42,050 bases of DNA from Dehalococcoidia bacterium (lineage in GTDB: Bacteria > Chloroflexota > Dehalococcoidia > JAUSIH01), in assembly GCA_030648205.1 (NCBI GenBank), contig JAUSIH010000078.1, positions 1-42,050 on the forward strand. The letters are read 5' to 3'. The position numbers and the translations under genes are program-made. The notes beneath the pieces are model-generated. The model saw only the letters and a list, made by a program, of their open reading frames with translations, did no database searches and was not told the DNA's origin. Positions 2,767 to 9,658 of this stretch are shown here, in pieces; within the stretch, counting starts at the first letter, position 1, and the number at the start of each line of letters is the position of its first letter.

Positions 2767-3222
2767 ATGTATAAAGCAATCCTCGTGCCCATGGACGGCT
2801 CTGCTACAGCAGAGGCGGCTTTGGACCATGCCGTAAAATTCGCCCAAGCTTTCCGGTCCACACTCGTTCTGTTCTATGTAGTGCCCACGTCCGGCGTTTC
2901 CTCTTCACCTCTGACGGTAGAGGAGAAGGCCCGCATCGCCGAGGTGGACCAGTACCTGAAGCAGTACAAGGAAAAGCTCACCAAGGCCGGTCTCAAAGAC
3001 GTGAACTGGGCGGTGACCTCCGGCGACCCCGCGGAGGAGATCATTCGGTACGCTGATCGGTGCAGCGCTGATCTCGTCGTCATGGGCACACATGGACGCT
3101 CCGAGGCATTCCAGTGGCTGTTCGGCAGCGTCGCCTCCAAGGTGCTCCAGAGCCTTGGCATTCCCGTGGTCATTCTGCGGCCCAAGGCGGCGGTAAAGCC
3201 GCTTCCGTCCTCCAAAAAGTAG
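2767..3222 (+). CDS. Universal stress protein, UspA family
   Basis: A 151-residue single-domain Usp. The N-terminus carries the typical ILVPMDGS strand-turn, and the ATP-binding signature G-x2-G-x9-G-S is complete near the C-terminus (GTHG, nine residues, then GS), so this member should bind ATP. Usp proteins act as cytosolic stress-responsive dimers. The ATG at 2767 is chosen because the family begins MYKAILVP; an AAAGGG site lies upstream. It is monocistronic as far as can be seen, with NAD kinase about 140 bp downstream under its own possible promoter. A short Pro/Lys-rich tail follows the domain. Confidence 0.92.
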   Translation: MYKAILVPMDGSATAEAALDHAVKFAQAFRSTLVLFYVVPTSGVSSSPLTVEEKARIAEVDQYLKQYKEKLTKAGLKDVNWAVTSGDPAEEIIRYADRCSADLVVMGTHGRSEAFQWLFGSVASKVLQSLGIPVVILRPKAAVKPLPSSKK

Positions 3223-7947: not shown

Positions 7948-8037
7948 TGGCGGAGACGGTGGGATTCGAACCCACGAGGGGCTTGCGCCCCTACGCGCTT
8001 TCCAGGCGCGCCTGTTAGGCCACTCCAGCACGTCTCC
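7948..8037 (-). tRNA. tRNA-Ser (anticodon GGA)
   Basis: Minus strand, 90 nt including encoded CCA. The acceptor stem GGAGACG/CGTCTCC, T-arm with GGTTCGAAT, anticodon stem CGCGC/GCGCG with loop CTGGAAA (anticodon GGA), and a long variable arm (GGGGC/GCCCC) make it a class II serine tRNA reading UCC/UCU. It lies 3 nt downstream of the tRNA-Ser(CGA) gene, so both are one transcript. Confidence 0.96.
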
Positions 8038-8040
8038 GAG

Positions 8041-8128
8041 TGGCGGAGAGGGTGGGATTTGAACCCACGGTGCCTTGCGGCACACCGCTTTTCGAGAGCG
8101 GCGCCTTAAACCACTCGGCCACCTCTCC
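8041..8128 (-). tRNA. tRNA-Ser (anticodon CGA)
   Basis: Minus strand, 88 nt including encoded CCA. Acceptor stem GGAGAGG/CCTCTCC, anticodon stem CCGCT/AGCGG with loop CTCGAAA (anticodon CGA, reading UCG), variable arm TGCCGCAAGGCA and T-loop GGTTCAAAT. It is the first gene of a two-tRNA serine unit, with an extended -10 about 15 bp upstream. Confidence 0.96.
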
Positions 8129-8141
8129 AAACCGAATGGTA

Positions 8142-8150
8142 ATTATATCA
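8142..8150 (-). promoter_or_regulatory. Extended -10 promoter of the tRNA-Ser pair
   Basis: Minus-strand TGATATAAT (TGn plus TATAAT) ending 13 bp before the first tRNA base. The candidate -35 at 17 bp (CCCACA) matches only three positions. Confidence 0.6.
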
Positions 8151-8263
8151 CAGAGCTATTTACCTGTGGGAGCACATGCATGATGGTTGGACAGTCCTCA
8201 CGATTTCGTGTCATGCGCGTGTCTTCATGCAGCATTTTCGAACGAAATTCAATGTTTTGTTGC

Positions 8264-8292
8264 TTGACATCGGAGCGGTGTCGTGGTATCTT
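8264..8292 (+). promoter_or_regulatory. Strong promoter of the structured RNA
   Basis: Perfect -35 TTGACA (8264-8269), 17-bp spacer, -10 TATCTT (8287-8292) preceded by TGG, so also an extended -10. The predicted start is at 8299-8300, exactly the first base of the closing helix of the RNA described next. Confidence 0.75.
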
Positions 8293-8298
8293 GTGCAT

Positions 8299-8440
8299 AA
8301 CCCAGGTAATTGAATAGCGTAAACCCATCAGGCACCAGAAAACCAAAGGCTAAGTAGCAGCAAGGCGTAAGCCAGCGAAAGGTTCCCAGGATTTCACCGG
8401 ATTGATGGGGTAAAGCTAAAGGTTACCTGGGTTTCCTTTT
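8299..8440 (+). ncRNA. Candidate structured small RNA of unknown family (~142 nt)
   Basis: The transcript predicted from the promoter begins with AACCCAGGTAA (8299-8309), which pairs perfectly with TTACCTGGGTT (8423-8433), extendable by two G.U pairs; TTTCCTTTT follows (8432-8440) and could end transcription. An inner helix CCCATCA (8324-8330)/TGATGGG (8403-8409) is separated from the closing helix by purine-rich internal-loop strands, and AACC/GGTT and GGCT/AGCC can extend the inner part. There is no open reading frame of note. The shape (paired termini, internal loop, inner stem) recalls 6S RNA, but I cannot recognise any family consensus; SRP, tmRNA and RNase P signatures are absent. Its 3' arm overlaps the stop codon of the convergent CaiB gene. 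Confidence 0.6.
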
Positions 8441-9658
8441 GCGCGCGCTTCCCTTCCCCTGGCCCAGCGGCGGCGCCACTTTCACTACACCCTTCGTCAC
8501 AAACGACCGCACCTCGTCCGCCGAGTAGCCCAGCTCCGCGAGTATCGCCTCCGTCTGCTCTCCCAGCCTCGGCGCAAAGCTGCGAAAGCTCGCGGGCGTG
8601 TCCGAAAGCTTTACGGGGAAACCGACCTGGCGCACCTTGCCCATGCGGGGGTGCTGAAGCTCCTGGACCATCTTCCTGTGCTGGATCTGGGGATCGTCCG
8701 CCACCTCGTGGATTTCCAGCAGGGGTGATGCGCACGTGTCCGCCGTGCGGAGCAGCTCAAACCACTGGTCGCGCGTCCTGGTCTTGATGATCTCCCGGAT
8801 CTCCGCGTACATCTTGCGCCGGAGCGTCATATCCGCCGGCCGCAGCGTGAGCGGCGCGAAGTCGGGCCGTCCGATGGCCCGGCAGAGGTTTTCCCAGAAG
8901 TGCTTCTCCGAGGGCATGAGGACAAGGTATTTGTGGTCATTTGTTTCAAGGATGATAAGGTTGTCCTGCGGACGTTGGAATGTCCTGCCGCTCCGGAGGT
9001 GGGAGGACAGGAACATGGTGATAAAGTGGACCGCGGTGTCCATCATGGAAACGTCCACGTACTGGCCGCGCCCCGTCTTGTGCCGCGCCTCCAACGCCGT
9101 CAGGACGCCGATGACCACGAAGAGGCCGCTCGCCATGTCAATGGTCGGTACGCCAACCCAGATGGGCGTGCCTTCTTTATCGTGCGGCAGGCTCAACATG
9201 CCGGCCAGGCCCTGGTAGTTGGGGTCGTGGCCGGGTATGTCCCGGTACGGCCCGTTCTGGCCGTAGCCGGAGAGAGAACAGTAGACCAGGCGAGGGTTGA
9301 TCTTCGCAAGGGTGTCGTAGTCAATACCCAGGCGCTTCGTCACCCCCGGCCTATACCCCTCTATCAGGACGTCCGCGGTGCGGACAAGTCGGCAGAAGAC
9401 GGCCTTGCCCTCATCATGCTTCAGGTTGAGGGCGATGCTTTTCTTGTTGCGACCCAGGGGATTGTACGCGGAGTGCTGGTCCTCGCGCTCCGGCGAGAGG
9501 CCGGGCGGCGTGAGGATGTCCCGTCCCACCCCGGCCCGATCTTCCATCTCCTCTACTTTGATGACGTCGGCGCCCAGGTCCGCGAGGAGCATGGAGCCAG
9601 ACGGCCCGGGGAGAAGCCGGGACAGGTCAATGATGCGAATCCCTTCTAGCGCAAGCAT
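8423..9658 (-). CDS. CaiB/BaiF family (class III) CoA-transferase
   Basis: A 411-residue family III CoA-transferase, which moves CoA between carboxylic acids through an aspartyl-CoA thioester. The N-terminus GIRIIDLSRLLPGPSGSMLLADLGADVIK-type fold, the GRNKKSIALNL segment and the acidic catalytic motif in GHDPNYQG (about residue 149) are present. A GGAGGT ribosome-binding site lies 5 nt before the ATG at 9658. The C-terminus is Lys/Arg-rich, and its stop codon lies inside the 3' arm of the convergent structured RNA. Substrates cannot be told from sequence; the nearby crotonase and LLM oxidoreductase suggest catabolism of a CoA-activated acid. Confidence 0.9.
   Translation of the reverse strand: MLALEGIRIIDLSRLLPGPSGSMLLADLGADVIKVEEMEDRAGVGRDILTPPGLSPEREDQHSAYNPLGRNKKSIALNLKHDEGKAVFCRLVRTADVLIEGYRPGVTKRLGIDYDTLAKINPRLVYCSLSGYGQNGPYRDIPGHDPNYQGLAGMLSLPHDKEGTPIWVGVPTIDMASGLFVVIGVLTALEARHKTGRGQYVDVSMMDTAVHFITMFLSSHLRSGRTFQRPQDNLIILETNDHKYLVLMPSEKHFWENLCRAIGRPDFAPLTLRPADMTLRRKMYAEIREIIKTRTRDQWFELLRTADTCASPLLEIHEVADDPQIQHRKMVQELQHPRMGKVRQVGFPVKLSDTPASFRSFAPRLGEQTEAILAELGYSADEVRSFVTKGVVKVAPPLGQGKGSARKRKPR

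Follow-up and report, generated by a model that had tools for sequence, protein, structure and literature searches.

What is transcribed from the segment that begins at position 8264 of the window (the whole 42,050-nucleotide stretch of Dehalococcoidia bacterium DNA analyzed here) is the question raised by this locus, which the initial annotation took to carry a dedicated, perhaps lineage-specific small RNA of no recognized family. The promoter proposed there, TTGACA followed by 17 bp and TGG-TATCTT, is present with 10 of 12 consensus matches and the extended TGG element, and TTGACA-17-TATCTT is the sole promoter-like site found on either strand in a scan of 2 kb. The predicted RNA start, A8299, lies 6 nt past the -10 hexamer TATCTT and flush with helix P1, the 11-bp perfect helix described originally; this helix (8299-8309/8423-8433) is exact and is lengthened to 13 bp by two U-G wobbles (8311/8421). 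The U-rich end expected after the closing helix is found as GGGUUUCCUUUU, and a simple terminator scan limited to loops of 3-8 nt detects no terminator at this position. The convergent CaiB reading frame (PF02515) ends at 8423 within the 3' arm of the RNA, placing its stop codon in P1 as had been noted. Tandem tRNA-Ser genes (GGA and CGA, both on the minus strand) occupy positions 7948-8128, and this pair is kept across relatives within the class. The features of the locus are collected in Table 1.

Table 1. Features of the small RNA locus, in window coordinates
Feature	Positions	Strand	Details and basis
Promoter	8264..8292	+	-35 TTGACA 8264-8269, 17-nt spacer, TGG, -10 TATCTT 8287-8292; like layout upstream of homologues
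Structured small RNA gene	8299..8440	+	~142 nt, start and end predicted; folding z = -3.8; homologues and covariation
P1, 5' strand	8299..8311	+	Partner 8421-8433; covariation at 7 of 13 pairs (14-sequence alignment)
First loop-E-like internal loop, 5' side GAAUA	8312..8316	+	Partner strand 8417-8420; GAGUA in most homologues; putative motif
P2, 5' strand	8324..8331	+	Partner 8402-8409; 5 of 8 pairs covary
P3	8338..8344	+	8338-8339 with 8394-8395, 8343-8344 with 8389-8390; covariation alignment
P4, 5' strand	8348..8351	+	Partner 8381-8384; one pair seen as A-U, U-A, G-C, C-G and G-U
Second loop-E-like internal loop (AGUA/GAA), 5' side AAGUA	8352..8356	+	Partner strand 8377-8380; putative motif
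Apical hairpin GGC-GUAA-GCC, GNRA loop	8364..8373	+	Fold and alignment; length varies among homologues
P2, 3' strand	8402..8409	+	Partner 8324-8331; covariation alignment
P1, 3' strand	8421..8433	+	Holds CaiB stop codon 8423-8425 (minus strand)
U-rich 3' end GGGUUUCCUUUU, presumed termination site	8434..8440	+	Sequence; U-rich tail after P1 in most homologues

The predicted fold of the 142-nt RNA has a minimum free energy of -48.4 kcal/mol compared with a mean of -34.5 for dinucleotide shuffles (n = 200), none of which folds as well. The arrangement of elements common to the family runs from P1 (13 bp) through an internal loop GAGUA/GAAAG, two base pairs and a second internal loop GUAAA/GUAAA to P2 (8 bp), P3 and P4, beyond which an AGUA/GAA loop is followed by a variable hairpin that often carries a GNRA-type loop. 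The inner helix initially placed at 8324-8330/8403-8409 corresponds to P2 and is one pair longer. The AGUA of the loop beyond P4 is invariant in an alignment of 14 sequences, and in the window copy this motif is intact, with the first one decayed to GAAUA/UAAA. The signature AGUA/GAA is that of the loop-E (bulged-G) motif, and the two internal loops of this type are accordingly described here as loop-E-like, an assignment made by sequence resemblance. The apical hairpin ranges from absent in a 131-nt homologue (L043) to long in one of 170 nt (L048), which argues against a coding function.

Homologues of the RNA are beyond the reach of plain DNA searches, which in 393 genomes of the class yield no more than short matches, either fortuitous or within coding sequence (TTCCCAGGATTTCACCG is one of the latter), and find a single copy of the RNA in the window's own genome; the exact core of the window's sequence is likewise absent from GTDB and viral contigs. 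A covariance model built from the window sequence alone (R1) identifies ten full-length or near-full-length relatives in three other genomes of the class, most with E values of 1e-7 to 1e-10. A second model built from 14 sequences (R2) matches at least 25 of the 393 genomes of the class and at least 32 of 400 from the phylum, with about 22 of the carriers falling in one family (f116); these prevalences are lower bounds because only a portion of the first-look candidates was scored in the genome searches. The 20-base core motif AGSATACCGAACNCTSAGTA has 14 matches in 257 Gb of GTDB genomes, 13 of them in records titled Chloroflexi and the other in a bin of thermophilic bacterium HR23. The HR23 RNA has exactly the sequence found in G326, which belongs to the class of the window. 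The sole viral-contig match of the core motif (L104) comes without the remainder of the RNA and was discarded.

The alignment of these relatives supports the fold. In the MAFFT alignment of the 14 sequences the structure has 34 pairs with 96.6% of cells paired, and 19 of the pairs are changed on both sides in a total of 66 cells. For each of five measures, no shuffle out of 500 comes up to the observed value, and pairing falls from 96.6% to 30-55% when the partners are shifted by 1-3 columns. In a 60-sequence alignment, itself fitted to the model, both-side changes occur in 28 of 34 pairs. The core of the most divergent members (L106-L129) is poorly aligned, so that their homology rests mainly on P1, the promoter and position. 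Lack of covariation, a coding gene and a mobile-element fragment had been named at the outset as findings that would speak against a small RNA; comparison of relatives instead reveals compensatory changes, and neither a coding gene nor a mobile-element fragment describes the region. Judged from the alignments, the fold is not the product of chance.

The layout of promoter and RNA is retained among the homologues. Of 58 upstream regions, 95% match TTGACA/TATAAT at 8 or more of 12 positions when read at the predicted distance from P1, compared with 3.2% of 2192 shifted positions; the spacer is mostly 17 nt, and a U-rich stretch follows P1 in most copies. The weakest model matches have excellent promoters directly upstream, often with TG before the -10 element, which lends them independent support. 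The comparison of sequences thus strongly supports the small RNA originally suggested at this locus, and a structured RNA family of Chloroflexota with its own promoters, uncatalogued in Rfam, can be considered well supported and established at this level.

The overlap with CaiB raises the alternative that the element acts in cis on the convergent gene as an antisense RNA or transcription terminator. The CaiB stop codon does lie inside P1, and many copies elsewhere are convergent with a gene end; the genes neighboring the copies are, however, diverse and mostly unrelated to one another, differing from copy to copy. The strong promoter faces the RNA element, the U-rich tail serves the RNA strand and not that of CaiB, and the inner loops are conserved far past what a terminator needs. 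Since homologous copies adjoin many unrelated genes, the CaiB gene appears incidental. A link between the RNA and CaiB is not conserved among homologous loci, the regulation or termination of CaiB that had been raised as a possibility finds no support, and a role for this gene is unlikely, with a cis-acting function in general very unlikely. One RNA copy has a T-box leader a short distance upstream of it (L113, 1102-1397).

The terminal inverted repeat formed by P1, and the presence of several copies in some genomes with some of them at contig ends, could also suggest a mobile-element fragment or repeat of the MITE type. Some carriers have 4-7 copies, with seven in G088 and five in G007. The paralogues in these two genomes are 74-99% alike within the RNA, but their upstream and downstream flanks are only 53-66% alike (58% for random sequence) while each copy keeps its own promoter; the unrelated flanks indicate genes with their own promoters and not transposon fragments, and dispersal of the copies by transposition was rejected on this basis. 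The dispersed copies with conserved ends that characterize MITEs were not found, as multi-copy genomes differ in flanks and spacers. The RNA is single copy in the window's genome, shows compensatory changes throughout and has no transposase recurring beside its copies, and searches of phage and plasmid sequences give no match, making a mobile origin extremely improbable. In G007 the end of one contig (C34) and the start of another (C100) break exactly where near-identical RNA copies end (L040, L045), and because of such breaks counts of copies in draft genomes are probably too low.

No known RNA family accounts for these sequences. At the gathering level none of 4227 Rfam models matches the RNA or its homologues, with the window region yielding only tRNAs, and at E <= 10 nothing credible appears in the region, the best match being PVT1_3, a model of a eukaryotic long noncoding RNA, on the other strand at half its cut-off. 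The absence of a recognized family reported initially therefore holds in Rfam at both levels. The suggested likeness to 6S RNA is retained in outline only. Like 6S RNA (RF00013), the window RNA is a stand-alone gene with its own sigma-70 promoter and no open reading frame, folding into a rod with a long terminal helix; unlike it, conserved loop-E-like motifs take the place of the large central bubble, and the 6S model (cut-off 46.4 bits) has no match at E <= 10 in positions 8130-8560.

The possibility that the RNA is nevertheless the 6S RNA of Chloroflexota, an abundant mimic of an open promoter that occupies RNA polymerase and is freed by pRNA synthesis, deserves consideration from the rod shape, closing helix and promoter, and canonical 6S is found neither in the window's genome nor in most carriers. 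In E. coli, ssrS adjoins a one-carbon/purine gene, which may be counted on the same side. Two bins (G007 and G549), possibly contaminated, hold a 6S RNA above the cut-off and carry the window-type RNA as well, and in the structure backed by covariation the internal loops are all short and carry conserved purine motifs, in place of one large single-stranded bubble. The co-occurrence in two bins and the missing central bubble suggest that the RNA is not simply 6S, and with no match to the model at E <= 10 this identity is rather improbable.

Other structured RNAs offer partial parallels. raiA, OLE and 6C are stand-alone structured RNAs recognized by comparative genomics whose function is unknown or was long unknown. 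The window RNA resembles them in being found by covariation, restricted to a lineage and conserved at non-helical bases, but differs in sequence and structure and matches no Rfam model at the gathering level. With the bacterial SRP RNA (RF00169) it shares a small rod, purine-rich internal loops and a GNRA loop, yet it matches neither RF00169 nor RF01854, and the SRP RNA of the window's genome is encoded elsewhere (G000:C25:1538-1637). The Chloroflexi-1 motif (RF01698), reported from Chloroflexus aggregans only (Weinberg 2010, PMC2864571), is likewise a candidate structured RNA of the same phylum, but its model gives no match to the family. No description of such an RNA was found in the open-access literature, and the family is not described under the terms searched in the main text of two structured-RNA surveys.

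One neighbor recurs among the otherwise diverse flanking genes. At 32 of 60 loci a gene adjoining the RNA, nearly always in convergent orientation, encodes a phosphoribosyltransferase (Pribosyltran, PF00156) fused to a domain that weakly resembles phage endonuclease I (for example at L109, L117 and L138); a GAF domain is often present at the N terminus. The recurring neighbors had been considered as dnaA and dnaN at an origin, an assignment dropped when Pfam showed the phosphoribosyltransferase fusion and a thiolase. Each of the 16 Chloroflexota genomes that were searched encodes the fusion protein, either intact or as its separate parts. At L117, the exception to the convergent layout, the fusion gene is upstream of the RNA on the same strand; linkage kept in a changed arrangement hints at function, but inherited gene order with a local inversion could explain it as well.

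Next to the fusion gene, candidate variants 170-195 nt long occur in G013 and related complete genomes, which are tentatively called Dehalococcoides-like. The variants show the P1 pattern CCCAGGUrACC/GGCUACCUGGG and were found by eye and with a helix scan and not by the model. L177 has two of them next to its phosphoribosyltransferase gene, spaced by approximately 490 nt (2535-2704 and 3025-3195; coordinates of the plus-strand helix scan, with the RNA on the other strand). The fusion gene of the window's genome is on another contig (G000:C3), away from the RNA. Beside it (L157, ~1344-1460) TTGACA-17-TATGAT precedes a short RNA-like segment containing GAGTAAGCG, GCATAGCCGAAAGG and TTTTTT, which may be a second copy in degenerate or shortened form.

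These observations suggest a further alternative, in which the RNA would be a bound cofactor or inhibitor of the [GAF]-endonuclease-I-like-phosphoribosyltransferase in a ribonucleoprotein tied to purine salvage or nucleotide sensing. The frequent and nearly always convergent linkage is extended by a further copy (L161) and by the Dehalococcoides-like variants (L162, L173-L178), L117 retains it in another arrangement, and both domain matches fit such a partner; PyrR, a protein of phosphoribosyltransferase fold, binds RNA. Against this, the linkage may be inherited gene order, and it is broken in the window's genome and in G007, G088, G083 and G326, which have RNA copies away from the fusion gene, and G419, G507, G549 and G514 encode the nuclease-like part and the phosphoribosyltransferase part on contigs other than that of the RNA. 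The partnership is on these grounds unlikely, although it is the most testable specific idea. Its broadest form, a ribonucleoprotein present across Chloroflexota in which the RNA is a cofactor or regulator of the fusion with its Holliday-junction-resolvase-like nuclease, is less likely again; if true, it would link nucleotide status to an RNA- or DNA-cutting activity through a structured RNA.

A stand-alone gene for a trans-acting, protein-binding structured small RNA, belonging to a Chloroflexota family outside Rfam, is the interpretation given a cautious preference from sequence comparison. The sigma-70-type promoter would direct a transcript of 115-170 nt (~142 nt in the window) starting exactly at P1, which would close the whole molecule and be followed by the U-rich end. 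The resulting rod would be built of short helices alternating with conserved internal loops rich in purines, including two of loop-E-like type (AGUA/GAA), and be tipped by a GNRA-type hairpin. Most likely the RNA would act in trans by binding a protein, as scaffold or decoy, and not by mRNA pairing or control of a neighbor. Trans action is suggested because copies with their own promoters stand beside unrelated genes, although the one gene beside the RNA in 32 of 60 loci could mean a local role. Protein binding is suggested because the invariant bases sit in non-helical motifs and not in a free seed region, and it probably takes place through the conserved loop-E-like internal loops. The leading candidate partners would be a housekeeping factor, for example RNA polymerase, and the phosphoribosyltransferase-nuclease whose gene adjoins the RNA in many genomes.

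RNAs that are retained across a phylum, have strong promoters and covary at dozens of positions usually play a central role in the cell, as do 6S, SRP RNA and tmRNA. The recurrence beside one conserved and unusual protein gene provides a concrete partner to test, and the family appears to reach complete Dehalococcoides-like genomes, in which its expression would be directly testable.
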